NCBI GenBank assembly: GCA_036873755.1
Contig: JAVTVY010018759.1
Coordinates: 1 to 64,000 of the forward strand
Length of the DNA stretch: 64,000 nucleotides
Reading direction: 5' to 3'
From: Hanleya hanleyi
Lineage: Eukaryota; Mollusca; Polyplacophora; Lepidopleurida; Hanleyidae
Part shown: in pieces, positions 13,713-53,417 of the stretch
Layout of the letters: each line of letters begins with the position of its first letter
Numbering within the stretch: the first letter of the stretch is position 1
Notes under the pieces: generated by a model
What the model saw: the letters and a program-made list of their open reading frames with translations, nothing else
Told to the model about the DNA's origin: nothing
Databases searched by the model: none
Made by a program: the position numbers and the translations under genes

Positions 13713-14894
13713 ATCATGATGTTCGTTTCATATCATCAAATCTGGTTGAACAATTGTCGATGCCGGACTACTTCAATAGTTTGATATCGGTATCCACATA
13801 CCATGGTTAGAAACTATTTTCTCCTGGCAAAACCAGTCGGACGCATTTTATTGAATTGAACAGAATAGCTTCCAGATTTGAATTATTTGCGGCTTTAGAG
13901 GTAAAATCTTGTAGTTTCTTTGTCTCTTCCATCCACTGGCTTTACCCGGTTTAATACCAAAATGAACCTGGGTTTATCTACGTTGAAAACTTGACCCTAA
14001 CATCGCCTGTGCTTTCAATCGCGCTTTTCAATCGCGCACTGATGTTAACTCACAATGAAGTTCTCACGCGAGATATTATCAAGTTCCCAGTATGTATCTG
14101 AGGTGGACACTCAGCAATCATGATACATGTTGCACGAGAAATGTAGGCTAATCCATGTCGAGTAGAAATTGCCAACATAAAGTAGTAAAACTAGATCGAC
14201 AGTCCATTTTTACGCAACACTACCATGAGTTAAATTTGCCGCCCTCCCCGAACGTTCAGCATATTTGCATCGAAAATGTACTATTATTTAATCGATAGGA
14301 TATTATCATTTTAGTGTAACATGAACGAGATAAAAGACATGTATATATTACAACACATATAAGGGAAGTGAGAAGAGATGCCGACATACTGAGAGAGCCA
14401 CATGACTTCACAGTATAGTCTTCCGGATAACCTATTCTAAAGCACATTCCATGAATCTAACGATTCGTGATGTGTTGTATCTCAGGTACGCTTTTATTGT
14501 ACCTGTTCATGTGGCAACTTGGATGATATGACTACACGGCCCCTAGCACCAGCATAAGCGGTATTAGATACAAATCTAGAGGGCTATTTTAGAAATGCTC
14601 TGACAACTCATATGTTGGTAATTGGTGAGCTGTTTCGCTGTGACAACTCATACACTGGGAATTGGTGAGCTGTATCGTCGTCAGATGAAAATGACGGCAT
14701 TTAACACAAAAGACTAGTCTGTAAGGCCCGATGTCGACCCAGCATCAACTTCCCACAAATGCCAACATATATCAAAGACCAAACGGTCTGTACAGGGGGC
14801 GGGCCTCGGGGCGAAACGTCCACCAGCAGAATCTTTTATGTGTTACTCTGGCGAGATACGATGATGTAATTAAACGTTTTATCATTTTATTTAA
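13713..14894. other. No gene recognised; short tandem duplication near 14600-14680
   Basis: Two copies of a ~50-bp unit (TGACAACTCATA ... AATTGGTGAGCTGT) lie side by side near 14598-14670. The rest is unassigned. Confidence 0.4.
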
Positions 14895-15062
14895 GAAATA
14901 ATGTTTTCATAGGCGTGCTCAATGGTTATTTTACGCACGGTTAGTGTGGGAAAGTTTATATTTTAGGGCAAGAACGAAACACGCGCCCTAAGATTTATGA
15001 AACTTTCCCACACTAACTGTGCGTAAAATAACCATTGAGCACTCCTATGAAAACATTATTTC
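14895..15062. repeat. 168-bp hairpin element
   Basis: Near-perfect inverted repeat with ~75-bp arms: GAAATAATGTTTTCATAGG at the left end and its complement at the right, with a loop of roughly 15-20 bp around AAGAACGAAACACGC. Arm differences are few. Consistent with a small fold-back MITE; no target duplication is evident. Confidence 0.85.
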
Positions 15063-15529
15063 TATTCTATTGCACTACCCAATTATAGATTATAATGAAA
15101 AGTTGAAAACATTTTAAACTTGGACAAACTTTCTCCCTTTCTTGACAAAACTCGTCCACTGATGCTACCGCCTCGATTGGTAATTACGTGGATGTATGTC
15201 TATTTGTGTCACTTGGTTGATCAATTTCATGATGGAAACAACAGTTAAACTTGAGAAAGAAATTTCATCTTGTAATTTATTTGTTCGTTTTATTCGATTG
15301 TTACTTGTATGAAAACAGACGTTCCGTTCGTCATCCGACTTGTTTAAATGGAATCTTCCAAAGAAAACCTGCACTTAACGGGTGTTGATTTCACATAACC
15401 GTGCTAAAATGTGTAATAATTACACGGTTAGCTCGATGTTATTGACATTAGTGTTATAGAATTGGCATTTCATAATAGCATAGGACTAAAATGTATATAG
15501 TATAAACGTTTAGCTGTTTAGACATAGGT
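15063..15529. other. No gene recognised
   Basis: Short AT-rich stretch with no supported feature. Confidence 0.4.
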
Positions 15530-17060
15530 TTGAAGAAAATATCTGGTGGGCCATACCCCGCCACCCCTAACATTAGGCTTGGGGTAATGACAAGATCAGG
15601 TTTCATAAAGCGAGCTGTAATGACCCTTAACCCTACCTGGCCTGGGGGGCCAGTATGGCCCCCCTATCAAACTTTCTGCACTATCTCCGGAACGGGGAAA
15701 AATGAAGAGATGAAACTCTGTGACTTTATAGCTTATCTTATTGGGGTCATTTCGAGCCTATTTGCATAACCCCCCGAGCAGAGGATCATGGGTAAATTCA
15801 AGATGGCGGCCACGTGGCGTACCAGAAAAGTGATGTTTTTGTCATATTTCTTCAAAATTTCTGCTTTTCCGCGATGAAAAGTGGGCAAAAACTATTTTAT
15901 TTCATATCACATTAATATTTGCTAATTTTTCATGCAGTTTTTGTGGAGAAATTGCAAAAATAAAAAATTCGGAAAATCTGAACGAAAAATCGACCAAAAT
16001 ATGCCGGTTTTGAAAATGACGTCACTGTGACGTCATCAAAGCGGCCATCTTGGATTTTGTTACATTTTCTGGTAGAGCTTGATCCAAGGGTATAGTATAA
16101 TACGTTTCAGCTCCCTAGCTCAAGGGGTAAGAAAAATAATTAGGGGGGGCCATTTCGGCCCCCCAGGCCTGGACAGGTCCCAAAAAGCCCAGGCCAGATA
16201 GGGTTAACCTGCTGAACTTCAAAGGCTATAACCTATGGGTAGCAACTACATAATAATAACACTCTAGGAAACATTAATGGAATCTGCTACCTCAAATGGT
16301 ACCAACTAAATAGGAAGTATGTATTAAAAATAGACTAAACGGCCGCCAAAAAATGATTTTCCATTTTATGACGTGATAGTGACGTCATAAAGGGATTTTA
16401 TTAATTTATGTTTACTGGTCTCAATAAACAAGGACATAAATGTAGTGTGTGGAAAATTTCATCCCTCTAGCAGCAAGAATGAAAAAAATATTCGATGAAC
16501 CATAACCCCCCATATTTGGGTTCAGAATGGGGGCGGAGTAGGGTTCTGAAAGTGTGCTATAACTAACTAACCATAAGTTGCCAATCTCCAACTCTTATCA
16601 CATATGGGTAATATCTACATAGAAATACATCTTCAATGAACACTAACCGAATCTGCCATGTCAAGTGGAACAACCAGAATTTTAAAAAATCAATTTGAAA
16701 ATGGACAAAAATGAAACAATTAATGGCTCACTTGGCTATTACGTCACTGTGCCGTCATCAAATAATTATATGACATGATGTTTCCTTGTTTCAAAAGAAG
16801 AGCACATATGTTCAAAGTGTGGAAAGTTTTAGATCTCTAGAGGAAAGCATAAGAAAAATATCCGATGGACCATACCCCGTCCCTCAAGTTTGGATTTAGA
16901 AATGGAAAGGGGTAGGGATGAAAAGGCGTGGCATATTACCCTTAAGCTACCGATATGAAACGCATATCACATATGGATAACATCAGTAGACATATACCTC
17001 TTCAAAAAATATTACCAGAACTTTCCATCTCAAGTGGTACCAGTTTCGACGCTGGCCCAT
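15530..17060 (+). repeat. Degenerate ~365-bp tandem repeat, three units, first split by a MITE
   Basis: Three units share blocks such as 'CCATACCCC', 'ATCACATATGG(G/A)TAA', 'GAATCTGCCATGTCAAGTGG' and a GTGACGTCAT-like block, seen ending near 16310, 16675 and 17040. The first unit is interrupted at a TTAA by the MITE at 15627-16207; removing it restores the unit. Units are strongly diverged from one another. Confidence 0.7.
15627..16207. mobile_element. TTAA MITE family A, full-length copy
   Basis: 581 bp bounded by TTAA on both sides, with inverted ends TTAACCCTACCTGGCCTGG and CCAGGCCAGATAGGGTTAA. TTAA target plus CCC-starting ends is the signature of piggyBac-type transposons, so this is probably a non-autonomous derivative. 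Inside are CAAGATGGCGGCC and GACGTCACTGTGACGTC palindromes. It sits inside the tandem repeat at 15530-17060. Confidence 0.9.
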
Positions 17061-17159
17061 GAACTATATCATTGTATTAAAGTACCAAGCAATATCTGAC
17101 TGTTTCGTACGGTGGCTCATAAGTGACATTGATATTTTTTTAATTTTGTATTTTTTTTT

Positions 17160-17690
17160 TTTGCATTATCACCTAGGTGGAAATTATTCTCACCTGGGTG
17201 TAAATTATTTTCACCTGGGTGATAATATTATCACCTGGGTGGAAATTATTCTCACCTGGGTGGATATTATTATCACCTGGGTGGATATTATTATCACCTG
17301 GGTGGAAATTATTTTCACCTGGGTGATATTATTATCACCTGGGTGGAAATTATTCTCACCTGGGTGGAAATTATTCTCACCTGGGTGGAAATTATTTTCA
17401 CCTGGGTGATAATATTATCACCTGGGTGGATATTATTATCACCTGGGTGGAAATTATTTTCACCTGGGTGATAATATTATCACCTGGGTGGAAATTATTC
17501 TCACCTGGGTGGATATTATTATCACCTGGGTGGAAAATATTTTCACCTGGGTGATATTATTATCACCTGGGTGGAAATTATTCGCACCTGGGTGGATATT
17601 ATTATCACCTGGGTGGAAATTATTTTCACCTGGGTGATATTATTATTACCTGGGTGGAAATTATTTTCACCTGGGTGAAAATCATTATAT
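17160..17690 (+). repeat. 20-bp palindromic minisatellite, left arm
   Basis: About 26 units of TCACCTGGGTGGAAATTATT with variants (GATAATATTA, GATATTATTA spacers). The outermost unit is CACCTAGGTG. The long open frame seen here is only a product of the stop-free repeat. Confidence 0.95.
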
Positions 17691-18033
17691 ATTTTCATTT
17701 TATTGTATTAATATTATAGTCAATTTGGCCACAGATTGCCCGTATGTACATGTACATGACGTACTGTCACTATGGGTGCACTCCACACTAGGTCACGGTT
17801 TCGCACAAATGGCCCTAATTTCAGAATAAGGAAGGTCGCCTGTTTTTGACAGCATGGTAATTCTTCTTCCCTTTCTACTAACTGAAATCTATAGTACTTA
17901 TCACCCTGCTGGACGTAACCATTTCTTCAAACGAAGATATAACATTTGCTTGCTGCATTTGCGTACACTTCGCCATCCATAAGATGGCTTACGAATCGTG
18001 TGTCTCCATTATCGCGGAGCGATATCCGGTGTT

Positions 18034-19423
18034 CATGGGCGTCGCTAGGATTTTTCAAATGGGGGTCGATTATCATAGCACTTTAGGCGAGGGTCCAGGG
18101 GCCGCCTAGGCCCCGGAAGCTCCGGGGTCCTAGATCGCCGGAGATGGGTTCTAAGCGTTTTCCAGGAATTAAATCTGAACATTATGTATGCAGATTTAGG
18201 GTTACATTATGCAGCTCTGAGACCTTAGATGGCCTGAGATGCATTCTGAGCGATTTCCAACAATTAAACTAACATGTCATTTGTCAAAATTCAGTATTAT
18301 ATTTTATTCTCTTTGTCATGTTGAAAACACAATAATAACGCTTTGGGCCTATATACCTCGTCGGCTAACCCAGTGGCGTCGGAACGTAATTGAAAGTTGG
18401 GGACCACTATCACAGCCCAACAGGCGGGGGTCCAGGGGCCGCCTAGGCCCCGGAAGCTCCGGGGTCCTACATGTAGATAGCCGGAGATGCGTTCTGAACG
18501 TTTTTCCGGAAATAAAACTGATCATACTGCATCCACATTTATGATTCTATTTTCACGATTTTTTTTCTCGCAATTATAAGCATGCATCGATATTGAAAAC
18601 ATCGCACCTCATGCCTTCATCCATTTGACGTTCTATTTATATTTAAAACCTAAAACGATGACTTATAGTTCTTGGGAGGGAAACCAATATGCCTACAGAT
18701 ACGATTCATTCACACACAGATAAAACAAGGAAATCCTCACAGCCCAACAGGCGAGGGTCCACGAGCCGTTTAGGCCCCGGAAGCTCCGAAGTTCCAGATC
18801 TCCAGAGACGCGTTCTAAGAGTTTTCCCAGAAATAAATTCGGACGTAATGTATGCAGATTTATGGTTCTATTTTCACGTATGTTTCTCATTTATAAGCAC
18901 TCATCGATATTGGAAAAATCATACTTCATGCCAGAATCATTAGAACCAATATGATAGCGATTCATTTACACAAAGCTAACATGAGCGATCGTCACAGCCT
19001 GACAGGCGAGGGTCCAGGGGCCGCCTAGGCCCCGGAAGCTCCAGGGTCTCCGGTTGCCGGAGATGCGTTTTACCCGTTTTCTTGGAAACAAATCTGAACA
19101 CAATGTATATAGATCTATGGTTCTATTTTCACATTTGTTTCGCATAAACCCGCATCGATATTGAAGAATATGCCGGACTCCATTTGACTTCCTGGTTTGA
19201 CACAAACAAAACGGGCCTTTTACACACCACTACACGTCTTGGCACTCTATCTGTAATTTTTATGTTTTTTTTATTTTATGTTTTTGTTTTTGTTTTCTCT
19301 GTTTTTGTTTTTTGTTTTTTTGTTTTTTCTTTTGCTTTTTCTTCTGTTTTTTTTTTTGGTGCGGCCAAGGGGGGCGGGTCGTTCGCACCGGACGACCCCC
19401 CCCCCCCCCTAACCACGCCCCTG
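18034..19423. mobile_element. GC-rich element with four tandem internal repeats
   Basis: Ends are an imperfect inverted pair: CATGGGCGTCGCTAG at the left and the complement of CTAACCACGCCCCTG at the right. Inside, a block GGGTCCAGGGGCCGCCTAGG followed by CCCCGGAAGCTCC occurs near 18090, 18428, 18750 and 19012. Each is followed by CCGGAGATGCGTT-like and GAACAtaATGTATGCAGATT-like blocks, giving a 260-335 bp period. A T-rich run and a C14 run precede the right end. Confidence 0.65.
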
Positions 19424-20343
19424 GTGTTTTACCGGATTCTGTTCGGCCTTCATCCGGCGGTGAACAGACTCGAGAAATCTGATAAATTACAGGTATTCAT
19501 ACCACTTCTGGAACAGATATTGCCTGAGCTTACAAAATATATAGGTATGAATAACTTTCGTATCATACAAGAGGTGTGGTGGATCTGAAATGTTGAACAA
19601 GTAGTTCATCACATGACTCGAAAATGGCGAGTTACGTTGGGATTACGTCGGTAGACTTTAGCTGATTGGCTGACGAAGTCACGTGGTATTGCTTTATGGA
19701 AATTCCCTCCTGCAATTGCCGAAAGTAGACTGACCATGGATACACACGATCCCAGGGTCAGTCTTACCGCGTATAGATGACCGAGATGGTTACAGGTTGT
19801 TGCTTGCTGGTCTCAACTACGCGACACTACGGAGTTAATCGTTTCCGGAATTGAATATCAGGCAGGCCAAAATCCTCACTTTTTCGAGGAACGAAAATGA
19901 TGATCCTTTATGGCGATAAAATTTTACAAAAAACGAGTAGGTCGACCCCCTGTTTTTTTCGCCATTTTAAATTGTCCTTTGGACGGGAAACACTTTAACA
20001 TACATACAAAGAAAATCATTTCGTACGTTTTCTCTGGGTTGCGGGTAGAATTTGACACATTTTCATATATTTTAAGGAGTTTTTCAGAAAAGTTGAAGAA
20101 GGTTTAAGAAGGATTGCACGTCTTTCATTTTCAATTTCAATAGCTCACTTGCCTCCTGGAATAATGGCATGAGTGTGCCCATTTGGAAAATATACAATTT
20201 TACAGGGGTTTTCTTAAAGATTTAACATATATTTAAGGCCGAAGACCCGAACCCATGTCTATTTTTAACCGCACATCATTTAGGTGTGGAATGCACCCTA
20301 TACCAGCGCCGTTCACTCCGTTGTTTCATGCGAACTCCTTCTA
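19424..20343. other. No gene recognised (inside fold-back element)
   Basis: Unassigned sequence between the GC-rich element and the right minisatellite arm. No coding or structural signal seen. Confidence 0.4.
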
Positions 20344-20920
20344 CCCAGATGAGAATGATTTCCACCCAGGTGATAATATTATCACCCAGGTGGAAATAAT
20401 TTCCACCCAGGTGAGAATAATTTCCACCCAGGTGATAATAATATCACCCAGGTGAAAATAATTTCCACCCAGGTGATAATAATATCCACCCAGGTGAGAA
20501 TAATTTCTACCCAGGTGATAATAATTTCCACCCAGGTGAAAATAATTTCCACCCAGGTGATAATAATATCCACCCAGGTGAGAATATTCCACCCAGGTGA
20601 TAATATTATCACCCAGGTGAAAATAATTTCCACCCAGGTGAGAATAATTTCCACCCAGGTGAGAATAATTTCCACCCAGGTGATAATAATATCACCCAGG
20701 TGAAAATAATTTCCACCCAGGTGATAATAATATCCACCCAGGTGAGAATAATTTCCACCCAGGTGATAATAATATCCACCCAGGTGAGAATAATTTCCAC
20801 CCAGGTGATAATATTATCACCCAGGTGAAAATAATTTCCACCCAGGTGATAATATTATCACCCAGGTGAAAATAATTTCCACCCAGGTGAGAATAATTTC
20901 CACCTAGGTGATAATGCAAA
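20344..20920 (-). repeat. 20-bp palindromic minisatellite, right arm
   Basis: About 28 units of the reverse-complement unit (CCACCCAGGTGATAATAATA and variants), ending in CACCTAGGTGATAATGC and an A-run that mirrors the left arm's outer boundary. Confidence 0.95.
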
Positions 20921-20983
20921 AAAAAAAAAATACAAAATTAAAAAAATATCAATGTCACTTATGAGCCACCGTAGTTTCGTCCA

Positions 20984-21975
20984 ATATGGGGTCTTGACCG
21001 TGTCCCAGACAATTCGATATATTATGATTTACTATATTCACTAATGAACCGCATCTATGTATCCCTCCAACATGGAAAAACCTGTGATGGAATTGGATTC
21101 CAAGATTGTGGTTCACTCACGGAGCTGATGCTTTTCACAACACATTATAATCGATACTTTCACATATTTCCCGTCCCTCTACACCTCCCCCTTCAGTAAA
21201 AGGGCACCATTTTTATGATCATATCACTGCCATCGCTACCCAATAGCATGGACGCACCCACTCACGGTTCCTTACATATCACGATCCATTAGCACGAACC
21301 GAACGCATCCGCGGCTCCTTTTATACTATTTATTTATTACTATACTTTTTATACTATTATCACATGGCACCACGGACGTAACCACGGCTCACTGCTCCTT
21401 TCGTACCATTACCAAATGGCATGAACGGACGGGCAGACACACTATATTATAACCTAGTGACACGAAGGATCCATATTACCCAGTGGCACGGAGGTATCCA
21501 ATGCTCTTTTTGCAGAATAAATATGACTTTTTTACAAAATTGACCAGGGGGGCTTATTAAGGATAGCTATCCCGTTAGAGGGTCAAAATTGGTCATTTTT
21601 TTATTTCTTCATTCACTATTTCGTCTAACATTTGGTGAAAAACTGAAATCAAAATTCTAATTAGAAGTGCGTCAATGTTGCGATTAAAAATTTTGTTTCT
21701 GGGGCACTGGAAAAATTAAACAGATTGCCTAAATGGTGGTCCGATATTAACATTTCACACGACTGTCTATTGTAAGTCATTAATAGCTGCCTTATTGTGT
21801 ATTTTATTGCTAATTGACTCGCAGGAACTGGTCACTCAAATAGTTTGTCGTAGGAATAAAGAGCAGTTTGCATGAGCTTGGCTACTTTTACTTTTGTCTG
21901 TTAAATTTTCCTTTCCAAAACTCATTTCGGCAGTATTTTGGTAAGCTAATTATCTGGAAGTCCTACACATTTACA
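20984..21975. other. No gene recognised
   Basis: Unique AT-rich sequence. Loosely repeated phrases (ACCATTA, ATGGCA, GGCTCC) near 21230-21500 may be a very old repeat, but no period could be fixed by eye. Confidence 0.4.
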
Positions 21976-22562
21976 TTAACCCTATCTGGCCTGGGCTCTT
22001 TGGGACCTATCCTGGCCTTGGTTTGGGGCCGAAATGCTTCCCCCCAAATTATTTTTCGTACCCCATGAGCTAGGGAGCTGAAACTTACCACAATATACCC
22101 ATGGGTCATGCTCTACAAGAAAATGTTAAAAACATTCAAGATGGCCGCCTTGATGACGTCACAGTGACGTCATTTTCAAAAACGACACTTCTGGGTCATT
22201 TTTTTTTATTTTTTATTTATGCAATTTCGCCGCAAAAGCTGCATGATAAATTAGTAAATATTATTGTGATGTGAAATAAAATAGTTTTTGCCCACTTTTC
22301 ATTGCGGAAAAACAGAAATTTTGAAGAAAAATGACGAGAATATCACTTTTCTAGGACCCCACGTGGCCGCCATCTTGAATTTACCCATGATCCGCTGCTC
22401 GGGGTCTTATGCAAATAGGCTCAAAAATAACCCAAATATGATAAACTAAAAAGTCAAGGAGTTTCATCTCTCCATTTTTTGTCGTTCCGGAGATAGTGCA
22501 GAAAGTTTGGTAGGGGCCATTTCGACCCACTCCCCCCCCCAACCCAGGCCAGGTAGGGTTAA
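21976..22562. mobile_element. TTAA MITE family A, second full-length copy
   Basis: 587 bp with TTAA at both edges and inverted ends TTAACCCTATCTGGCCTGGG / CCAGGCCAGGTAGGGTTAA. It is in the opposite orientation to the 15627 copy: the internal CAAGATGGCCGCC and GACGTCACAGTGACGTC blocks come first here, the GCAAATAGGCTC block later. Ends and middle are well preserved. Confidence 0.9.
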
Positions 22563-23459: not shown

Positions 23460-23465
23460 CCAATG
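23460..23465. other. Left 6-bp target-site duplication CCAATG
   Basis: Identical to 32123-32128 immediately outside the other end of the palindromic element. A 6-bp duplication is characteristic of Polinton/Maverick integration. Confidence 0.85.
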
Positions 23466-23470
23466 AGTAG

Positions 23471-23602
23471 TATATAAAGAGCAAATTGGACCGGATTGAC
23501 CTACTTATTTGTTCCCCCGGGTAAAATTTGTGGGGGAACTGTGGCGGGGTTTCCCAGTGGGGGATTCCCCAGTGGGGGTTTCCCAATGGCGATCACGTGA
23601 TC
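23471..23602 (+). promoter_or_regulatory. Terminal regulatory cluster, left arm (TATA, three kB-like sites, CACGTG)
   Basis: TATATAAAG at 23471-23479 points inward from the terminus. NF-kB-like decamers follow: GGGGTTTCCC at 23546-23555, GGGGATTCCC at 23560-23569 and GGGGTTTCCC at 23575-23584. The 12-bp palindrome GATCACGTGATC is at 23591-23602. The cluster is conserved in the right arm. Function is inferred from motif resemblance only. Confidence 0.5.
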
Positions 23603-23663
23603 AAGGCATGTCTAGACTTGTTCTGGGTTGTACAGTTCTGCCATACGGAGGATGGGTACTAAT

Positions 23664-23705
23664 AAATTAATTAATTAATTAATTAATTAATTAATTTTAA
23701 TTAAT
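23664..23705. repeat. (TTAA)n microsatellite, left arm
   Basis: Tandem TTAA/AATT run; the mirrored run is at 31876-31924 and is slightly longer. Confidence 0.9.
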
Positions 23706-24149
23706 TACTTGTAAAATGGCGGTGTTTTTAGACGGCGCAAGGGAGCAAACGAGGCGGTGGGGACATCACGGGGAGAAAAAACCCTCACATTACCCTCAAA
23801 AAAACCTCTAAGCCATATAATAGTAATAAACATAATCTATAGGTGTTGTACCATGTTAATAGGATCAGTCTAGCATCTGTACCACCCTAGGGTCGAGTGT
23901 TTATTGTCCCGTGTATCTCCGCAAGAAAACAACAAACAAAATGGCGGCTCCAGGATGGTGCGGGGACGCCCTTTCCATATCACGGCGTCGACCGTAGCGC
24001 CATCTGCACACATTGACGCAAGGGAGACAACTCGTGTGGCCCAAGGATATGGAAATAGCCGTGTTGGAGCTAGGGGAGTGACTACTGGTCCAGTGGGGTC
24101 GAGTGAGGTATCAATGTGAAGCCTATGTGAGGGGGCGTGTAATGGGCTG

Positions 24150-25100
24150 GGTGTGGGGTTGAACTAGCGTCATTCTGCGCATGCGCGGTGGCCGAAGGGT
24201 ATGAAAATAGCCGTTTTGGAGCTAGCGAAGCCAATAATGGTCCAATGGGGTCGAGTGAGGTATCAAAGTGAAGCTTATGTGAAGGGGCATCTGACTGGAC
24301 TAGCGGCTTGGGCGTTGTCACCATTCTGCGCATGCGCGGTGGCCCAAGGGTATGGAAATAGCCGTGTTGGAACTAGGGGAGCCACAAATGGCCCAATGGG
24401 ATCGAGTGAGGTATCAAAGTGAAGCATTCGTGAAGGGGCATCTGATGGGCTGGGTGTGGGGTTGAAGTATCGGCATTCTGCGCATGCGCGGTGGCCGAAG
24501 GGTATGGAAATAGCCGTGTTGGAGCTAGGGGAGTTACTACTGGTCCAGTGGGGTCGAGTGAGGTATCAATGTGAAGCCTATGTGAGGGGGCATCTGACTG
24601 GACTAGTGGGGTTGAAATAGCGGCATTCTGCGCATGCGCGGTGGCCCAAGGGTATGGAAATAGCCGTGTTGGAGCTAGGGGAGCCCCTGATGGTCCAATG
24701 GGATCGAGTGAGGTATTAAAGTGAAGCCTAGGTGAGGGAGCCTCTGATGGGCTGGGTGTGGGGTTGAAGTATCGGCATTCTGCGCATGCGCGGTGGCCGA
24801 AGGGTATGGAAATAGCCGTGTTGGAGCTAGGTGAGCCACAAATGGTCCAATGGGATCGAGTGAGGTATCAAAGTGAAGCATTCGTGAAGGGGCATCTAAT
24901 GGGCTGGGTGTGGGGTTGGAATATCGGCATTCTGCGCATGCGCGGTGGTCAAAGGATATGAAACTAGCCGTTTTTGAGCTAGGGGAGCCTCTAATGGTCC
25001 AATGGGATCGAGTGAGGTATCAAAGTGAAGCATTCGTGAAGGGGCATCTGATGGGTTGGGTGTGCGGTAGGAATATCATTCTGCGCATGCGCAGACGCAA
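24150..25100 (+). repeat. ~151-bp tandem repeat, left arm, 7 units with NRF1-like cores
   Basis: The core GCGCATGCGC recurs starting near 24177, 24328, 24480, 24630, 24782, 24933 and 25083. Spacing is 150-152 bp, often alternating, which suggests two unit subtypes. Units also share GGTATGGAAATAGCCGTG, TTGGAGCTAGGGGAG and CGAGTGAGGTATCAA blocks. Open frames inside are repeat artefacts. Confidence 0.95.
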
Positions 25101-25616
25101 TGCGGAGCTCTCGTCCAATCAGAAGCGAGTATTTCAAATCCGTCACAGAGCTCTCAGCCAATCAGAAGCGAGTATTTTGACCCGGTGCATTATGGGCCAT
25201 ATCCAAGATGGCGGCACGTATGTTCAAGATGGCGGCACATCCGGTGTCGAAAACTGGCCATTTCGTCGGGATGTGGTCACCTAGTGTCGAAAACTGGACC
25301 CTGTATGGGTCCCGCTAGCGCCTTGACGCCATGATATAGACCGGAGAGAGAAAACAACAACAACAAGGATGACACATGAGGGAACAACAACAACAACAAG
25401 TTTTTTTTCATATAGTTTATTTTCCCCTTCCATCATAACATACCCACGCTGGGGGAGCCGCGTTGGGTATGTTTACAATTCAAGAAAGACTCTTGGCCAA
25501 TCAGAGACCGCCATTTGCATCTGTCCTATTCGTTCCTGTCCGTTAGATGTATTCTTGTCCAATCAGAAGTCGCCATTTCAGAGAGTTCCTTCTTCGGTCA
25601 TGTTCATTCTGAACCG
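25101..25616. promoter_or_regulatory. CCAAT/YY1-like motif region and 3' flank, left arm
   Basis: Contains CCAATCAG at about 25115, 25158, 25496 and 25558, and two CAAGATGGCGGCAC blocks near 25203 and 25222 (YY1-like AAGATGGCGGC). A (CAA)n run lies near 25350-25400. The region is mirrored in the right arm at 29672-30190. It lies 3' of the zinc-finger gene, so any promoter role would be toward the terminus or for an unseen transcript. Confidence 0.45.
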
Positions 25617-25622
25617 TTTATT
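25617..25622 (-). terminator. Poly(A) signal AATAAA, left-arm zinc-finger gene
   Basis: AATAAA on the minus strand abuts the stop codon of the 25623-26195 gene. The same arrangement is kept in the right arm. Confidence 0.7.
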
Positions 25623-26195
25623 CTAATCATCGTCGGACAGGCCTGGATATTCTTCGGGCAGCATGTCCTGAAACAGTTGTTTGCGCATTCTGATCGCATT
25701 TTCCAGGGCCTCTGTGGATGGTAGTCCCATATCCTCTTTCAAGTGACGCTTGGTCTTCATGATGGACCTGTGCGTGGGGTCCCCTTTCATTTCAAGCGGT
25801 AGTAAGGTATACTGTTCATAGATCGCCATGGCTGTTTTCCTGATGCGGGAGCGCATTTGGGTGTACGTCTGTTGTAAATTATCCTCTCCGGCGTCCTCGA
25901 TCGCTTCAGCGTGAGTATTGATAGCTGCTGTCACAATACGATCCCAGAAGGTAGGTTCTGCCTCACTTTCCTGGGATGTAGGCTGACTCTCTGAGGTCAA
26001 GCTCTCCATATCAGTAGATATACTGTCAGCAATCTTGGATTCGGTATCAGTCGATGCACTCTCATCAATCTCTGTATCAGTATCTGCCTCAACGGGCTCC
26101 TCGGCGTCTTCAATCCCATGTATATTTTTCTGGTGTCGCATCATATCGTAATGTCTGGTGAACGTGCGTTCACACTCAGAACAAGTATAAGCCAT
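25623..26195 (-). CDS. C2H2 zinc-finger protein, 190 aa (left arm)
   Basis: Intact frame starting at ATG. One N-terminal C2H2 finger (CSECERTF...H...H, residues about 4-26, C-x2-C-x12-H-x4-H). A long acidic Ser/Thr/Glu-rich linker follows (about 30-85), then a helical C-terminal domain (about 85-180) with the pattern DPTHRSIMKTKRHL and AIRMRKQLF, and an acidic tail DDD. That C-terminal domain resembles the last ~125 residues of the neighbouring ATPase gene (DPVHMEI..TASML...AIAQKKHLF), so the two look like relatives. It differs from the right-arm copy at only two residues as read (Gln/Arg and Gln/Pro). It may bind DNA of the element or host. I do not recognise the full protein and its function is unknown. 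Confidence 0.8.
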   Translation of the reverse strand: MAYTCSECERTFTRHYDMMRHQKNIHGIEDAEEPVEADTDTEIDESASTDTESKIADSISTDMESLTSESQPTSQESEAEPTFWDRIVTAAINTHAEAIEDAGEDNLQQTYTQMRSRIRKTAMAIYEQYTLLPLEMKGDPTHRSIMKTKRHLKEDMGLPSTEALENAIRMRKQLFQDMLPEEYPGLSDDD

Positions 26196-26269
26196 GTTGA
26201 CGGTTGAACGTCGACTGTGCGTGTTTTGGGAAGCTTTTTAGGCGTGTTTTTAGAAGCTCTGATTTCATG

Positions 26270-26367
26270 GAATTGACATCAATTCATCGAAATGCAGTGA
26301 CGCCCGTCAACGCCCGTCGTTACGCCTTAACGCTCGTCTCAACGCTTTAACACACTTTCTTAACGCT
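26270..26367. promoter_or_regulatory. GCGTTRA repeat cluster, left arm
   Basis: Repeats of AACGC/GCGTT motifs (ACGCCCGTCAACGCCCGTC, TTAACGCTTTAACG) lie between the zinc-finger start and the ATPase-gene stop. The mirrored cluster is at 28862-29025. The same GGGCGTTGACGGGCGTC word occurs in the hairpin at 27286. Could be binding sites for the element's own zinc fingers; inference. Confidence 0.45.
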
Positions 26368-27192
26368 TTAACGACGTTTAATGATGCGTTCGAACAAATG
26401 TTTCTTTTGTGCTATTGCTCTGACATACGCCGCTTTCCAGTTCATGCCCGAGGCTTTCAACATCGACGCTGTTCTTTCAATTTCCATATGGACTGGGTCC
26501 TTATCCAACAATTTCATATGGGTCAGTAAGTCGACATACTGCTGACGTAAAGCCTGTCGTAGTCTGGGTGCCAATCTGTTATGGGCTAAAATTGCAGCTT
26601 CCTCTTTCGAATACCCTTTGCGTTGAAACTTGTTTCCTGTGGCCTCCAAAATCTCGCCCATCTCGGCGTCCATATTTTCTTTGAACAAATCCTTCCATAG
26701 CCTCGAGTTCACATTATGTTCTTCAACCTCGGGTTGGGCCTTCACGGTTGGATGATATTCCGGGACTGGTGATATGAAGAAGGCCCGATGTACGGGGGTG
26801 GGTTGCTGCTTCACCAAATGTGGACTCGGTGGATGGTGTAGGGGCTGTGGTGATTCCTCGCCGGGTAGCAGGTGGGTCGTCAGCCGGCGATCTTTGGGGG
26901 TATGGGCTTTTAAATCTACGAACAGGTAGCCGTACGGACGACTTGTCGCTTCTTGAAACGCCTGCATGAAATGGTCGATGTTCTGAGGATAAATTCGACT
27001 ACCAAACACACGAATTTGTGCTCTGTCAATGGGGTTGGAGAACATCATCATCGTGTAGGGATGCTCTACTGCACTTGCTGGACCTATAGCGGGACTCGGT
27101 GGTGTCTCTTGGTTGTGTTTGCCTTGAATGTGCCTGATCATACTATCGCGACGAGAGAAGGTTCTTTGACAGAACGTACACGTACACGACAT
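26368..27192 (-). pseudogene. Zinc-finger/A32-like ATPase gene with ATPase core deleted (left arm)
   Basis: 274-codon open frame. The N-terminal C2H2 finger (CTFCQRTFSRRDS...H...H) is followed by a Pro-rich linker. It then jumps straight to the C-terminal part of a Polinton/adintovirus-lineage packaging ATPase (FSNPIDRAQIRVFGSR, RPYGYLFVDLKAHTP), then a Pro-rich segment and the C-terminal domain ending KKHLFERIIKRR. Compared with the right arm, about 385 bp (near 27806-28192 there) containing the Walker A and B regions is missing without changing the frame. The junction lies near 27042, beside a short ATG direct repeat. The product could be made but cannot hydrolyse ATP as read. Confidence 0.75.
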
Positions 27193-27257
27193 GTTGATCT
27201 GTCGACCAATACATAAGGACTGATGAGGGACACATGTTCATTCTTATATGTACAGAC

Positions 27258-27290
27258 ATCACCACCACCACCACCACCACCACCGCCACC
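27258..27290 (+). repeat. (CAC)n microsatellite
   Basis: Run of CAC/CAT triplets in the left-arm-specific ~100 bp near the centre of the palindrome. The poly-His frame over it is not a gene. Confidence 0.9.
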
Positions 27291-27325
27291 ACCGGGCGTT
27301 GACGGGCGTCAACGCCCGGTGGTGG
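27286..27325. repeat. Hairpin of 18-bp arms
   Basis: CCACCACCGGGCGTTGAC and its complement with a 4-base loop (GGGC). It contains the GGGCGTTGAC word also found in the intergenic clusters of both arms. Absent from the right arm. Confidence 0.9.
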
Positions 27326-27446
27326 TGGTGGTGGGAACTTCCGTGTGGCAGAGCTCTTGGATCGGAGCTCTTGGAGCTCAAAGCCTGTGGAGCTCAGATC
27401 TCGGAAGTGACATTTGCATACGACCTCTGTGAGGTCACTTCCGCTT

Positions 27447-27507
27447 TACAGGAAACCTTTACACCGCGCGCGCCAGGGTCAAAGGTCAGTTCCGGTCACG
27501 TGAACGG
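27447..27507. other. Central spacer of the 8.66-kb palindrome
   Basis: The 61 bp between CCGCTT (left arm end) and AAGCGG (right arm start) have no inverted partner. The spacer contains CGCGCGCG-like sequence and GGTCACGTGAAC. It is the probable fold-back junction from which the palindrome arose. Confidence 0.75.
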
Positions 27508-27662
27508 AAGCGGAAGTGACCTCAAAGAGGTCGTATGCAAATGTCACTTCCGAGATCTGAGCTCCACAGGCTTTGAGCTACAAGAGCTCCGATCCAAGAG
27601 CTCTGCCGCACGGGTGTTCCCACCACCACCACCGGTCCTTATGTATTGGTCGACAGATCAAC

Positions 27663-28866
27663 ATGTCGTGTACGTGTACGTTATGTCAGAGAACCTTCTC
27701 TCGTCGCGATAGCATGCTCAGGCAGATTCAAGGCAAACACAACCAAGAGACACTGCCGAGTCCTGCTATAGGTCCAACAAGTGCAGTAGAGCATCCCTAT
27801 ACGATGACGGTGAGCGGCCCTACGGCATGTAGAAAGACGTCCTGGGTAATGAAGTTCTTAGAGGAAGGTGTGGCAACCCCAGCTCCGACACGTGTTGTTT
27901 GGTGTTATAGCCAATGGCAGCCCGCCTACGAAACTACGCGATTACAGAATGTGAGTTTTGTCCCAGGGATTCCTCATGACATAGACGAACCGTATTACTT
28001 TGACCCTGAGCAGACCAACGTGGTAGTGCTAGATGCTCTGATGAGTGCGGCCAAGGACAATTCGAAAATCGCCGACCTATTCACCAAAGGGTCCCATCAT
28101 CGCAATCTGTCCGTCATCTATTTGACCCAGAATCTCTTTCCTCAAGGGAAGGCGTCAGAGATATTGCCTTGAACTGCCAATACTTTGTGTTGTTCTCCAA
28201 CCCCATCGACAGAGCACAAATTCGTGTGTTTGGTAGTCGAATTTATCCTCAGAACATCGACCATTTCATGCAGGCGTTTCAAGAAGCGACAAGTCGTCCG
28301 TACGGCTACCTGTTCGTAGATTTAAAAGCCCATACCCCCGAAGATCGCCGGCTGACGACCCACCTGCTACCCGGCGAGGAATCACCACAGCCCCTACACC
28401 ATCCACCGAGTCCACATTTGGTGAAGCAGCAACCCACCCCGTACAGCGGGCCTTCTTCATATCACCAGTCCCGGAATATCATCCAACCGTGAAGGCCCAA
28501 CCCCAGGTTGAAGAACATAATGTGAACTCGAGGCTATGGAAAGATTTGTTCAAAGAAAGTATGGACGCCGAGATGGGCGAGATTTTGGAGGCCACAGGAA
28601 ACAAGTTTCAACGCAAAGGATATTCGAAAGAGGAAGCTGCGATTTTAGCCCATAACAGATTGGCACCCAGACTACGACGGGCTTTACGTCAGCAGTATGT
28701 CGACTTACTGACCCATATGAAATTGTTGGATAAGGATCCAGTCCATATGGAAATTACAAGAACAGCGTCGATGTTGAAAACCTCGGGCATGAACTGGAAA
28801 GCGCCGTATGTCAGAGCAATAGCACAAAAGAAACATTTGTTCGAACGCATCATTAAACGTCGTTAA
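27663..28866 (+). pseudogene. Zinc-finger/A32-like packaging ATPase gene, frameshifted (right arm)
   Basis: The start is taken at 27663, where the conserved MSCTCT begins; the same ATG starts the left-arm copy. Order: C2H2 finger (residues about 3-26), Pro-rich linker, then the ATPase. The ATPase has a Walker-A-like GPTACRKTSW with Arg where Gly is usually invariant, a Walker-B-like NVVVLDALM, the sensor-like IYLTQN, and the family-typical NPIDRAQIRVFGSR and RPYGYLFVDLK. The C-terminal domain ends KKHLFERIIKRR. Frame changes near 28155-28165 and 28440-28447 split it into three frames (to 28172, 28169-28492, 28489-28866). A32-like ATPases package viral DNA into capsids. This copy looks inactive, from both the frameshifts and the Walker A change. 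The zinc-finger fusion is unusual to me. Confidence 0.75.
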
Positions 28867-29025
28867 AGCGTTAAGAAAGTGTGTTAAAGCGTTGAGACGA
28901 GCGTTAAGGCGTAACGACGGGCGTTGACGGGCGTCACCGCATTTCGATGAATTGATGTCAATTCCATGAAATCAGAGCTTCTGAGCTAATTCACCAGGGC
29001 GTTGAAGCGTTGAGCTAAGCGTCGA
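28862..29025. promoter_or_regulatory. GCGTTRA repeat cluster, right arm
   Basis: Repeated GCGTTAA/GCGTTGA words (at least eight by eye) between the ATPase-gene stop and the TATA box of the zinc-finger gene, including GGGCGTTGACGGGCGTCAC. Placed where an operator would be; role inferred. Confidence 0.5.
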
Positions 29026-29039
29026 TGACCGTTACTGTC

Positions 29040-29047
29040 TATAAAAG
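29040..29047 (+). promoter_or_regulatory. TATA box of right-arm zinc-finger gene
   Basis: TATAAAAG lies 45 bp upstream of the ATG at 29093, consistent with a short leader. The equivalent segment is missing from the left arm, where GAGCTTCT jumps to AAAACACG-type sequence. Confidence 0.6.
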
Positions 29048-29092
29048 CGAGCGTATTCCCAAAACACGCACAGTCGACGTTCAACCGTCAAC

Positions 29093-29665
29093 ATGGCTTA
29101 TACTTGTTCTGAGTGTGAACGCACGTTCACCAGACATTATGATATGATGCGACACCAGAAAAATATACATGGGATTGAAGACGCCGAGGAGCCCGTTGAG
29201 GCAGATACTGATACAGAGATTGATGAGAGTGCATCGACTGATACCGAATCCAAGATTGCTGACAGTATATCTACTGATATGGAGAGCTTGACCTCAGAGA
29301 GTCGGCCTACATCCCAGGAAAGTGAGGCAGAACCTACCTTCTGGGATCGTATTGTGACAGCAGCTATCAATACTCACGCTGAAGCGATCGAGGACGCCGG
29401 AGAGGATAATTTACAACCGACGTACACCCAAATGCGCTCCCGCATCAGGAAAACAGCCATGGCGATCTATGAACAGTATACCTTACTACCGCTTGAAATG
29501 AAAGGGGACCCCACGCACAGGTCCATCATGAAGACCAAGCGTCACTTGAAAGAGGATATGGGACTACCATCCACAGAGGCCCTGGAAAATGCGATCAGAA
29601 TGCGCAAACAACTGTTTCAGGACATGCTGCCCGAAGAATATCCAGGCCTGTCCGACGATGATTAG
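29093..29665 (+). CDS. C2H2 zinc-finger protein, 190 aa (right arm)
   Basis: Intact and nearly identical to the left-arm copy: one C2H2 finger at the N-terminus, an acidic linker rich in TDTE/STDTES repeats, and a helical C-terminal domain with DPTHRSIMKTKRHL and NAIRMRKQLF. The start ATG is preceded by a TATA box, and the stop is followed at once by AATAAA, so this copy has a complete minimal transcription unit. It follows the frameshifted ATPase gene in the same direction with a 226-bp gap holding GCGTTRA repeats. The shared finger and C-terminal domain suggest the two genes arose by duplication, one gaining or losing the ATPase. A regulator or DNA-binding structural protein is plausible, not shown. 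Confidence 0.8.
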   Translation: MAYTCSECERTFTRHYDMMRHQKNIHGIEDAEEPVEADTDTEIDESASTDTESKIADSISTDMESLTSESRPTSQESEAEPTFWDRIVTAAINTHAEAIEDAGEDNLQPTYTQMRSRIRKTAMAIYEQYTLLPLEMKGDPTHRSIMKTKRHLKEDMGLPSTEALENAIRMRKQLFQDMLPEEYPGLSDDD

Positions 29666-29671
29666 AATAAA
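29666..29671 (+). terminator. Poly(A) signal AATAAA, right-arm zinc-finger gene
   Basis: Directly after the TAG stop. A second AATAAA lies near 29865. Confidence 0.7.
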
Positions 29672-30179
29672 CGGTTCAGAATGAACATGACCGAAGAAGG
29701 AACTCTCTGAAATGGCGACTTCTGATTGGACAAGAATACATCTAACGGACAGGAACGAATAGGACAGATGCAAATGGCGGTCTCTGATTGGCCAAGAGTC
29801 TTTCTTGAATTGTAAACATACCCAACGCGGCTCCCCCAGCGTGGGTATGTTATGATGGAAGGGGAAATAAACTATATGAAAAAAAACTTGTTGTTGTTGT
29901 TGTTCCCTCATGTGTCATCCTTGTTGTTGTTGTTTTCTCTCTCCGGTCTATATCATGGCGTCAAGGCGCTAGCGGGACCCATACAGGGTCCAGTTTTCGA
30001 CACTAGGTGACCACATCCCGACGAAATGGCCAGTTTTCGACACCGGATGTGCCGCCATCTTGAACATACGTGCCGCCATCTTGGATATGTCCCATAATGC
30101 ACCGGGTCAAAATACTCGCTTCTGATTGGACGAGAGCTCTGTGACGGATTTGAAATACTCGCTTCTGATTGGACGAGAG

Positions 30180-31480
30180 CTCCGCATTGCGTCTGCGCAT
30201 GCGCAGAATGATATTCCTACCGCACACCCAACCCATCAGATGCCCCTTCACGAATGCTTCACTTTGATACCTCACTCGACCCCATTGGACCATTAGAGGC
30301 TCCCCTAGCTCCAAAACGGCTAGTTTCATATCCTTTGACCACCGCGCATGCGCAGAATGCCGATATTCCAACCCCACACCCAGCCCATTAGATGCCCCTT
30401 CACGAATGCTTCACTTTGATACCTCACTCGATCCCATTGGACCATTTGTGGCTCCCCTAGCTCCAACACGGCTATTTCCATACCCTTCGGCCACCGCGCA
30501 TGCGCAGAATGCCGATACTTCAACCCCACACCCAGCCCATCAGAGGCTCCCTCACCTAGGCTTCACTTTAATACCTCACTCGATCCCATTGGACCATCAG
30601 GGGCTCCCCTAGCTCCAACACGGCTATTTCCATACCCTTGGGCCACCGCGCATGCGCAGAATGCCGCTATCTCAACCCCACTAGTCCAGTCAGATGCCCC
30701 GTCACATAGGCTTCACATTGATACCTCACTCGACCCCACTGGACCAGTAGTAACTCCCCTAGCTCCAACACGGCTATTTCCATACCCTTCGGCCACCGCG
30801 CATGCGCAGAATGCCGATACTTCAACCCCACACCCAGCCCATCAGAGGCTCCCTCACCTAGGCTTCACTTTAATACCTCACTCGATCCCATTGGACCATC
30901 AGGGGCTCCCCTAGCTCCAACACGGCTATTTCCATACCCTTGGGCCACCGCGCATGCGCAGAATGCCGCTATTTCAACCCCACTAGTCCAGTCAGATGCC
31001 CCCTCACATAGGCTTCACATTGATACCTCACTCGACCCCACTGGACCAGTAGTAACTCCCCTAGCTCCAACACGGCTATTTCCATACCCTTCGGCCACCG
31101 CGCATGCGCAGAATGCCGATACTTCAACCCCACACCCAGCCCATCAGATGCCCCTTCACGAATGCTTCACTTTGATACCTCACTCGATCCCATTGGGCCA
31201 TTTGTGGCTCCCCTAGTTCCAACACGGCTATTTCCATACCCTTGGGCCACCGCGCATGCGCAGAATGGTGACAACGCCCAAGCCGCTAGTCCAGTCAGAT
31301 GCCCCTTCACATAAGCTTCACTTTGATACCTCACTCGACCCCATTGGGCCATTATTGCTTCGCTAGCTCCAAAACGGCTATTTTCATACCCTTCGGCCAC
31401 CGCGCATGCGCAGAATGACGCTAGTTCAACCCCACACCCACCCATTACACGCCCCCTCACATAGCTTCACATTGATACCT
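30180..31480 (-). repeat. ~151-bp tandem repeat, right arm, 9 units with NRF1-like cores
   Basis: GCGCATGCGC cores begin near 30195, 30345, 30497, 30649, 30799, 30951, 31101, 31253 and 31403, with spacing alternating about 150 and 152 bp. Two more units than the left arm, showing independent copy-number change. Confidence 0.95.
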
Positions 31481-31875
31481 CACTCGACCCCACTGGACCA
31501 GTCAGTAGTCCCCTAGCCTCAACACGGCTATTTCCATATCCTTGGGCCACCGAGAGTTGTCTCCCTCAATGTGCAGATGGCGCTACGATCGACGCCGTGA
31601 TGGGGAAAAGGCGTCCCCGCACACACCATCCTGGCCATTTTTGTTTGTTGTTTTCTTGCGGAGATACACGGGACAATAAACACTCGACCCTAGGGTGGTA
31701 CAGATGCTAGACTGATCCTATTAACATGGTACAACACCTATAGATTATGTTTATTACTATTATATGGCTTAGAGGGTTTTTTGAGGGTAATCTGAGGGTT
31801 TTTTCTCCCCGTGATGTCCCCACCGCCTCGTTTGCTCCCTTGCGCCGTCTAAAAACACCGCCATTTTACAAGTAA

Positions 31876-31924
31876 TTAATTAAAATTAATTAATTAATTA
31901 ATTAATTAATTAATTAATTAATTT
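31876..31924. repeat. (TTAA)n microsatellite, right arm
   Basis: Mirror of the left-arm run, slightly longer. Confidence 0.9.
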
Positions 31925-31986
31925 ATTAGTACCCATCCTCCGTATGGCAGAACTGTACAACCCAGAACAAGTCTAGACATGCCTTG

Positions 31987-32117
31987 ATCACGTGATCGCC
32001 ATTGGGAAACCCCCACTGGGAAATCCCCCACTGGGAAACCCCGCCACAGTTCCCCCACAAATTTTACCCGGGGGAACAAATAAGTAGGTCAATCCGGTCC
32101 AATTTGCTCTTTATATA
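31987..32117 (-). promoter_or_regulatory. Terminal regulatory cluster, right arm
   Basis: Mirror of 23471-23602: GATCACGTGATC near 31987, GGGAAACCCC at 32004-32013, GGGAAATCCC at 32018-32027, GGGAAACCCC at 32033-32042, and CTTTATATA at 32109-32117. The middle site changed sequence but still fits the kB pattern. Confidence 0.5.
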
Positions 32118-32122
32118 CTACT

Positions 32123-32128
32123 CCAATG
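32123..32128. other. Right 6-bp target-site duplication CCAATG
   Basis: Matches 23460-23465. Confidence 0.85.
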
Positions 32129-41745: not shown

Positions 41746-42316
41746 CATTCACATGCAAAGGAGATGGTACGATAAGGCGGGAATTCAGCCTATACGCGAT
41801 GCGGTTAAGATTCAAAAAATAAAATGTCCTATAAATAATTGTGTTTTAAAGTAACGACAAGGGAAAATATATGTACACAATATTTGAAAATTCTAGCTCG
41901 ATTGCGTTATGATAAAACTGAAATTTGCAGCATGTCCTATTTCGCGAAAAGGGGTCTAAATCGAGTGATTCAAACATATATTTAGACAAGAAGGACCCCC
42001 TTGGACCGAGTGAAGTTTCCATCAGTGGAGATCTAGCACATAACCAGGTTAAATGACGTTTCTGTCCAAGGGGTCATTCGTGTCTAAATGTGTGTTTGAA
42101 TGACTTGATTCAGACATTTTTTAACGAAAGAGCACATGCTACGGATTTTAATTTCATATCATAACTATAAAATATAACGCAATCGAGCTAGAACTTTCAC
42201 ATATTGTATACATATATTTTCTCTCTTTTCGTCACATTAAAACACAGTTCTTTTTAGGACATTTTATTTTTTTTAAATCCCGCCTCATCGTACTACTTCT
42301 TTACTCTCCATGCAAA
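41746..42316. mobile_element. 570-bp element with ~260-bp inverted repeats
   Basis: Left CATGCAAAGGAG...TACGATAAGGCGGGA and right complement are inverted copies, continuing through AAAATGTCCTA, GTGTTTTAA, AATATATGTA and CTAGCTCGATTGCGTTAT, to AAGGACCCCCTTGG near the centre. Arms are diverged. No coding capacity. Confidence 0.8.
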
Positions 42317-46928: not shown

Positions 46929-46942
46929 CTACCCCCGCCTTC
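46929..46942 (-). other. Polypurine tract
   Basis: On the minus strand GAAGGCGGGGGTAG directly precedes the LTR start TGTAACG, as expected for plus-strand DNA priming. Confidence 0.7.
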
Positions 46943-46963
46943 GAAAATCATGACGCCCTCGTC

Positions 46964-47293
46964 ATGGCTCTCGTCACGCTACCAGCAGCACGGGTGTGCA
47001 GAACAGAACATATGTACAGCGTATATACAACAGAATTACAGGACGACGGTGACAAAAGAGATGATTACAATTTCGACATCGTAAACTATCCCTTTCTGGA
47101 TAGTAATATTCCAGTGGGACCTGCATATGGCGTATACATATCTCGCTTAGTAGCATTTGCTAGATCCTGTGTTAAATGTGATGATTTTAATCAACGTCAC
47201 AGAACATTGTTACAGAAACATAAAACAGGGCTATTCCACCAAGCGCCTCCACTCAAAAGTTTCTCAAATTTGGCGATACATATCGCATGCTGA
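46964..47293 (+). pseudogene. Antisense fragment of a foreign retroelement protein
   Basis: This frame, opposite to the Gypsy genes, contains IVNYPFLDSNIPVGPAYG, VYISRLVAFARSC, DDFNQRH and LLQKHKTG. These resemble the IVNYPFLD...YGVYISQL...DFxxR segment that I recall as common in invertebrate retroelement (reverse-transcriptase-associated) proteins; exact family not established. It starts mid-domain and has no upstream RT, so it is a fragment, lying between the polypurine tract and pol. Probably captured or inserted; it cannot be native to the Gypsy coding order. Confidence 0.55.
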
Positions 47294-47518
47294 TAGCAAA
47301 ATACGAACGTAGCGTGCAAGATCTATGGCGCTACGTTTCGTAACATGTGTCTAATTCCGCTTAACCCGGGGCTAGGGGCCGTATGAGCCCATGTACTTCA
47401 AGATCATCATGGTACTCATATGAACAGTCACAATCAAAGCGTGATTGAGGTACATCATTTTTAGATGACACTTATAACGAATATTATGGATTAAGAATAC
47501 TGATCAGCGATACGGATT

Positions 47519-47734
47519 TGATATTTTGGAACATCATGATGTCTTGCCGGCATCATTGAAAATTGTTGACCGCTTCTCTCTTGCAGGAAACAAGCCTTTG
47601 TGTTTTGTAGTACTTTTTGAATTTGGTGCTAATACTGTTATATGGAAATGGAATAGGTCTTTGGATTATGGACGCGGATATTCTCTAATGGACGACGGCT
47701 GGATTATGAATGACGGACTAGACGCTTGTAATTC
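47519..47734 (+). repeat. ~215-bp segment shared with 13490-13712
   Basis: Same orientation as the copy at 13.5 kb, clearly related with scattered differences and small indels. It lies in the Gypsy 3' untranslated region next to the antisense retroelement fragment. Confidence 0.8.
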
Positions 47735-53415: not shown

Positions 53416-53417
53416 GT

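Follow-up and report, generated by a model that had tools for sequence, protein, structure and literature searches.

A probable non-autonomous family of palindromic Polinton/Maverick elements in the genome of the mollusc Hanleya hanleyi

The DNA described here, termed the window, is a stretch of 64,000 nt from the polyplacophoran mollusc Hanleya hanleyi (assembly GCA_036873755.1, contig JAVTVY010018759.1, positions 1 to 64,000 of the forward strand). At 23466–32122 it contains a single insertion of 8657 bp, the whole of which is palindromic. This element is probably a copy of a non-autonomous palindromic Polinton/Maverick family that was founded by inverted duplication of one end and is moved in trans.

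The element lies between two copies of the hexamer CCAATG (23460–23465 and 32123–32128), its target site duplication. The initial annotation of this DNA had correctly placed CCAATG on both sides, while its extent of 23460–32128 included the duplication and thus exceeded the element proper. The left terminal motif, AGTAGTATATAAA (23466–23478, plus strand), starts with (AGT)2, and the right terminal motif (32110–32122, minus strand) ends with (ACT)2 when read on the plus strand. The 5′ start is AGTAGTATATAAAG, the other end is its reverse complement, and the first 60 nt are identical between both ends. In vertebrate Mavericks, as excerpted from PMC8097293, the commonest end motif is likewise (AGT)2//(ACT)2, target duplications are 6 bp long, and terminal inverted repeats (TIRs) span 46–1447 bp. 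The earlier assignment to Polinton/Maverick-type ends with a 6-bp duplication is borne out by these features.

The inverted arms make up nearly the whole element and are far longer than the usual Polinton TIRs. The left arm occupies 23466–27446 (plus strand) and the right arm, its inverted copy, 27508–32122 (minus strand), with the inner boundaries read from the sequence. Between them lies a 61-nt loop at the axis (27447–27507), of which 57 nt fall inside a centre segment that is matched in several other copies. This spacer is set within a weaker palindromic centre of ~310 nt (27321–27633) that is 85% self-complementary. The arms are identical at 3861 of 3976 aligned columns (97.1%, gaps excluded). 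The ~4-kb inverted arms and 61-bp spacer described earlier are confirmed; the arms are indeed inverted copies of each other, and not perfect ones. The large differences between them are two 151-nt repeat units (302 nt), a stretch of 54 nt, and the 380-nt core of an ATPase gene that are missing from the left arm, and 99 nt that are missing from the right. Self-comparison yields inverted matches of 3066 bp (95.4%) and 1646 bp (94.5%), which stand far above chance; a separate count gave 59 inverted pairs. From the outside to the axis, each arm consists of the terminal repeat, a tandem array with a period of ~151 nt (7.0 units at 24036–25092 on the plus strand; 9.0 units at 30195–31552 on the minus strand), a gene termed gene 1, and the ATPase gene with its start toward the axis. 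A second contig, C28701, carries the same left flank and CCAATG as the window copy, whose left junction is matched by the second contig at 99.35%. The fetched sequence L009 is allelic with the window copy only as far as 26232, and thus supports the left junction, not the palindrome.

The initial annotation treated the element as a single product; it instead belongs to a multicopy family with a shared centre. The host genome (G000; 2.48 Gb, 52,793 contigs) was searched, with only the best candidates scored each time; below, W denotes the window copy, C-numbers denote host contigs, and L-numbers denote fetched sequences. A 301-bp end query gave 1964 candidate places. Among the best 40, which were scored, 28 matches were near full length (two being the window's own ends) and 12 covered the first ~205 nt. 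Twenty of the 24 other loci with a near-full match were fetched for reading, together with 6 of the 12 partial ones. The centre is reached in 12 of these 20 copies, and the other 8 hit a contig end earlier. In seven of the 12, the contig ends at the centre or within it, and all five that continue (L009, L014, L016, L017, L019) run into the inverted arm. Most copies are incomplete because the assembly breaks inside the elements. The four copies with both ends have perfect target duplications, all different: CCAATG in W, CATGGC in L016 (in which one arm is internally deleted), TGTGAC in L017, and TACGTC in L019. Insertion as one palindromic unit is repeated at several sites, and the further palindromic copies that the initial annotation proposed to look for exist. 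Among the partial end matches, L032–L034 are gene 1 arms beyond a diverged stretch, and L029–L031 are another arm type.

For the centre, the best 40 of 1326 candidates were scored; nearly its full length is matched at 18 places, the greater part at 3, and one half together with the loop at 20. Six further centres were inspected, and arms lie on both sides in L036, L037, L038, and L040. The half-centre matches were considered as non-palindromic parents and rejected, as three of the four fetched (L036, L037, and L038) show deleted or truncated arms flanking the loop on either side. C441 combines this palindromic centre with other arms, C1730 has half of the same centre midway between its ends, and C471 has lost most of one arm. 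In C2354, the arm type of the window family occurs in stretches on both sides, and the ends are alike over ~160 nt only. A frame with about three C2H2-like fingers, recognised by eye, lies inside the 12.15-kb C2354 element (L074, G000:C2354:19500-21499).

Polintons that could act in trans are present in the same genome. A full-length relative is C2091, an element of 21,952 bp with the duplication CCCGTC, a TIR of 283 bp at 93.6%, and the same end motif as the window family. It has an rve integrase (E 1.5e-11) near one end, the C-terminal part of a PolB (E 9.9e-7) near the other, and a frame that is 53% identical to a capsid-like frame adjoining PolB in L039. Both frames are presumably capsid, a label taken from this similarity and from background on the family; Pfam gave no match for them. 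The ends of C2091 and of the window family have in common the 13-nt motif, the layout of the adjoining box (see below), and ATTGACC. L039 encodes a 1260-aa PolB (E 6e-45) and has a weak adenovirus-protease match under the cut-off. The PolB piece of C2091 and the PolB of L039 have no BLASTP similarity, which suggests that the two elements are distant. PolB (PF03175) is widespread in the host genome, with many long open frames among the best 84 of 1723 candidates that were scored. C2091 may thus be regarded as a helper candidate on the strength of its shared ends. Relatives of the autonomous type to which the initial annotation attributed integration in trans do exist, and their part as helpers is suggested by the same likeness of ends.

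Palindromes of other make-up also occur. C1134 is 2089 bp long, with the duplication CTCACG, arms of ~960 bp at 95.7%, and a different centre. C17426 belongs to another Polinton lineage; it is 5765 bp long and has the duplication ACTGTA, its arms align over 2819 bp at 97%, and the extra ACT past its right end is the first half of this duplication. Both are palindromic apart from an unpaired middle of 184 nt in C1134 and 163 nt in C17426. In this second lineage, the PolB-side end starts with AGTAGTAGA (L039 position 500; a start common to many copies), and the arms of C17426 match the PolB-side end over L039 500–1936. Nothing in the 2 kb that were read from an integrase-side end matched L039 739–1936 (E 0.01), and the inner ~1 kb of the C17426 arms had no match in the five sequences compared. 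C3352, of which the ends were read, has the same inverted pairing and the duplication TACGTC. Together, C1134 and C17426 show that palindromes have formed repeatedly. The integrase-side end on C6008 was tried as partner of the PolB-side end and rejected, as the duplications differ (ATAATA vs AACACA); the integrase-side and PolB-side ends may therefore belong to two elements.

For a linear genome replicated by strand displacement from two protein-primed ends, these ends are the sole requirement in cis, and Polinton replication as linear protein-primed molecules has been argued from their genes. Such replication offers a route to the palindromes. One end region of a Polinton-like linear genome would have been inversely duplicated around a short loop, most simply when a growing or displaced strand folded back on itself (snap-back) during protein-primed, strand-displacing replication. 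The product would have a replication origin and an integration end at each terminus, and PolB/integrase Polintons of the kind seen here could copy and integrate it in trans with 6-bp duplications. At a hairpin stage, one arm may template the other, so that arms and end boxes would be alike before integration; after integration, the arms would diverge by drift. The loop, the ends, the duplications, and the high copy number all follow from this fold-back model. Snap-back, which the initial annotation likewise inferred as the origin, is one of several routes that fit, others being different template switches or head-to-head joining.

Evidence that one arm can template the other comes from L017, although this copy retains 32 bp of the loop core. 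Its two arms have 26 private substitutions in common, whereas in 345 cross-copy pairs such sharing averages 0.07 and never exceeds 6. Together with the matching end boxes, these shared private changes are evidence for copying between arms.

The end boxes are the second line of evidence. Between AGTAGTATATAAA and ATTGACC lies a hypervariable box with a constant length of 16 bp (in the window, 23479–23494 on the plus strand and 32094–32109 on the minus strand, with identical letters). The exact end pattern AGTAGTATATAA-N17-ATTGAC occurs 1146 + 1079 times in the host genome (2225 ends), and the pattern read backwards occurs 0 + 0 times. Over 23 ends of fetched copies, mean pairwise diversity in the box is 0.449 per site, compared to 0.013 at positions 30–60 and 0.029 at positions 61–200; positions 1–12 and TTGACC are invariant partly because ends were selected on them. 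The first 100 ends listed have 84 different boxes, with a mean distance of 10.0 of 16. When opposite ends on one contig within 30 kb were paired among these 100, 11 pairs resulted, 8 of which have a perfect 6-bp duplication (C2354, C441, C471, C1134, C1493 twice, C1730, and C2091), the two C1493 pairs being one site in both orientations. Of 12 duplication-bounded pairs, 11 have boxes that match between the two ends exactly or with a single difference. They are identical in W, L016, L017, C441, C471, one C1493 pair, C1730, and C2091, whereas L019, C1134, and the other C1493 pair have one difference each. Where a direct duplication is lacking, the paired boxes differ at 2 (C837, with inverted flanks), 7 (C1042), and 10 sites (C805); in C805 and C1042 the duplication is absent and the boxes are unlike.

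Coupling among box positions, measured on 82 of the 84 different boxes, is mainly local, so that the box resembles short words strung together. In the second Polinton lineage, the few ends seen vary at about the same place. As a guess, the box could be a helper-specific recognition site. A broader proposal, tentative and open to considerable doubt, is that palindromic Polintons are a recurrent parasite class maintained by hairpin copying via one arm, and that the box is an origin key matched to the helper's binding protein, with keys swapped between parasites and helpers and the box evolving far faster than the surrounding end. No variable end box of this kind was found in the literature searched, a search that was not exhaustive. 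If it is confirmed, the hypervariable box would represent a type of end-recognition code that is new for transposons.

Several observations weigh against a founding fold-back with later copying between arms and movement by a helper such as C2091. No non-palindromic parent with the window family's own arms was found in the host genome, and the earlier claim that both ends and all genes are duplicates of one end of a larger element is accordingly a proposal where the window family is concerned. The similarity of C2091 to the window family is limited to the first ~146 nt (~80%). In L035, one of the four half-centre places fetched, one side of the centre has no recognisable sequence and matches no sequence compared. 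C32642, at first a candidate for the other allele of the element in the window, is instead a distinct hybrid copy: its centre is 99% like the window centre, and a different arm type is joined to this centre on one side. C2354 has a perfect duplication, and its end boxes differ at 7 of 16 sites. The arms of each pair in W, L009, L019, L014, and L016 share no private changes. Arm–arm distance is 1.1–1.95% in four of these five pairs, which is near the distance between different copies (means 1.7–2.2%); L016 is an outlier, with arms 7.6% apart over 711 columns, exceeding its distance to any other copy compared. Because these five pairs share none, the case for homogenisation is carried by one copy and the end boxes. 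Around such elements in C837 and C1493, the flanks are inverted copies of each other, which may reflect inverted duplications or assembly fold-backs. The arm tree is nearly a star, with 3 of 24 inner branches well supported, and a burst of insertion from a near-uniform source followed by independent drift would fit these distances.

The strongest rival explanation, although somewhat unlikely, is that the palindrome arose not by fold-back of a single strand but through head-to-head joining or template switching between two genomes or nearby ends, and that later recombination reshuffled the arms. The two arm types of the hybrid C32642 and the unlike boxes of C2354 indicate recombination between elements, and both speak for this route, as do the arm–arm distances that approximate the distance to other copies in 4 of 6 pairs. 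Joining between genomes does not readily explain the conserved asymmetric loop at the axis, which is the trace expected of fold-back, nor the near-identity of boxes at both ends in all duplication-bounded pairs save one.

It is less likely still that the arms grew stepwise on the chromosome, with TIRs extended by gene conversion or gap repair until they met, as for Galileo. Galileo inverted repeats enlarge by recruiting internal sequence, and the portion of PMC3573991 available mentions Polinton inverted-repeat expansion too; the subterminal tandem arrays also resemble those of foldback elements. However, one loop common to many copies suggests a single founding event, C1134 and C17426 are palindromic save for their short middles, and no graded series of arm lengths was seen in the copies read, few of which are complete. 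Finally, although the inverted flanks at C837 and C1493 show that folded contigs may occur in this assembly, and 16 of the 20 fetched copies are cut short within the element by the end of their contig (15 of these at the centre or short of it), an assembly artefact in which contigs fold back on themselves is highly improbable given the direct 6-bp duplications with unlike flanks on each side in the window, L016, L017, L019, C441, C1134, C1730, and C17426, the 2–3% distance and large indels between the window arms, and the left junction seen in a second contig.

The genes of the arms are cargo, decaying at present. Gene 1 is an open frame of 190 aa in both the left arm (25623–26195, minus strand) and the right arm (29093–29665, plus strand). 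In the right arm, TATAAAAG occurs at 29040–29047, ~50 nt ahead of gene 1, and the 54-nt gap of the left arm falls here. The N-terminus of gene 1 resembles a C2H2 zinc finger (E 1.6e-4, under the Pfam cut-off), and its C-terminal part is helical by prediction, in a structure model that is unreliable (mean predicted local distance difference test score, pLDDT, 57.5). Both parts recur in the ATPase gene (BLASTP E 1e-6 for the finger and 3e-5 for the C-terminal part), which thus consists of the two parts of gene 1 with an A32-type core in between. This A32-type packaging ATPase is broken in both arms of the window element. In the left arm, a 274-aa frame (26368–27192, minus strand) fuses the zinc finger and C-terminal parts, and the 380-nt P-loop core is absent. 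In the right arm (27663–28866, plus strand), the core is present and split in three frames (27573–28172, 28169–28492, and 28489–28866), with a P-loop that deviates from that of its relatives. Gene 1 is open in 13 of 24 near-full copies, and its ratio of nonsynonymous to synonymous polymorphism (pN/pS) is 0.92 (105 pairs, 15 gap-free copies); the lack of visible constraint fits a cargo role.

For the ATPase core fragment, 211 of 277 candidates qualify as relatives at E 1e-3, with an identity of at most 61% among the 120 relatives listed. Pox_A32 is matched by 23 of 23 aligned relatives and zf-C2H2 by 16 of 23, while the window fragment itself has no Pfam match. Its structure model (mean pLDDT 71.2) gives weak PDB matches, mostly to P-loop NTPases, and the fourth-ranked of them is the STIV2 packaging NTPase (E 2.5e-3). 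A single N-terminal C2H2 finger and a Pox_A32-type core are likewise found in zinc-finger A32 ATPases from cnidarians and other genomes; these differ in sequence to the degree given above, and in the C-terminal part common to gene 1 and the ATPase gene. Neither this part, taken from the 274-aa frame, nor gene 1 has a relative at E 1e-3 in protein searches, and IMG/VR yielded none for the ATPase, the alignment of its family, gene 1, or the 24-nt end. PHROGs and PDB sequence searches of the arm proteins returned little apart from zinc fingers. No polymerase, integrase, or capsid frame was seen in the window element (longest frame 274 aa; five frames scanned with Pfam).

Foldback transposons, which besides Galileo include Tetris, FB, and sea urchin TU, have 7- to 9-bp target duplications and a relative with a cut-and-paste transposase; the duplications found here are 6 bp. 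The window family resembles foldback transposons in its very long inverted repeats, its subterminal tandem arrays, and its movement as a unit (PMC4168063 and PMC3573991, both in excerpt). In contrast, Galileo belongs to the cut-and-paste P superfamily and makes 7-bp duplications (PMC4168063, in excerpt), whereas the window family has 6-bp duplications and ends and relatives of the self-replicating, protein-primed type. It is like Polintons/Mavericks in its (AGT)2//(ACT)2 ends, 6-bp duplications, inverted ends, and presence of a packaging ATPase gene, albeit broken in both arms (PMC8097293, in excerpt), and unlike them in being nearly all inverted arm, with PolB, integrase, and capsid frames not seen.

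Palindromic defective forms of protein-primed linear DNAs include the deletion forms of the yeast killer plasmid pGKL1 and symmetric incomplete adenovirus genomes, in which one end of a terminal-protein linear genome is duplicated in inverted orientation. These are extrachromosomal replication products, while the window family is integrated and multicopy. No palindromic Polinton family was found in the literature searched, which was not exhaustive and in which the excerpted PMC3573991 cites Polinton inverted-repeat expansion. A gene-spanning palindromic mobile element with an axis loop is the kind of by-product that protein-primed replication should leave, and its occurrence as a multicopy family makes the mechanism testable in genome data through arm–arm copying, fold-back points, and helper matching. 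The family also adds to the Polintons a class of parasites from within, much like the defective genomes of viruses.

Other mobile elements occur in the window. An element at 17108–20973 has the 6-bp duplication GTTTCG; its inverted ends (583 bp, 94%) contain 21-nt tandem repeats, start with TACGGTGGC, and are therefore not of the (AGT)2 type. Around it lie inverted ends (83.6%) that start with TTAACCC (15627–22562) and probably mark a TTAA-type DNA transposon into which this element was inserted. Three short sequences are palindromic over their whole length (62871–63372 at 82%, 41814–42272 at 74%, and 14894–15063 at 84%), which indicates that small foldback-like sequences recur within the window. 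A retrotransposon, presumably gypsy-like from its frames, occupies 44342–56028, with direct repeats of ~2.6 kb (44342–46929 and 53431–56028) that are 98.7% identical.

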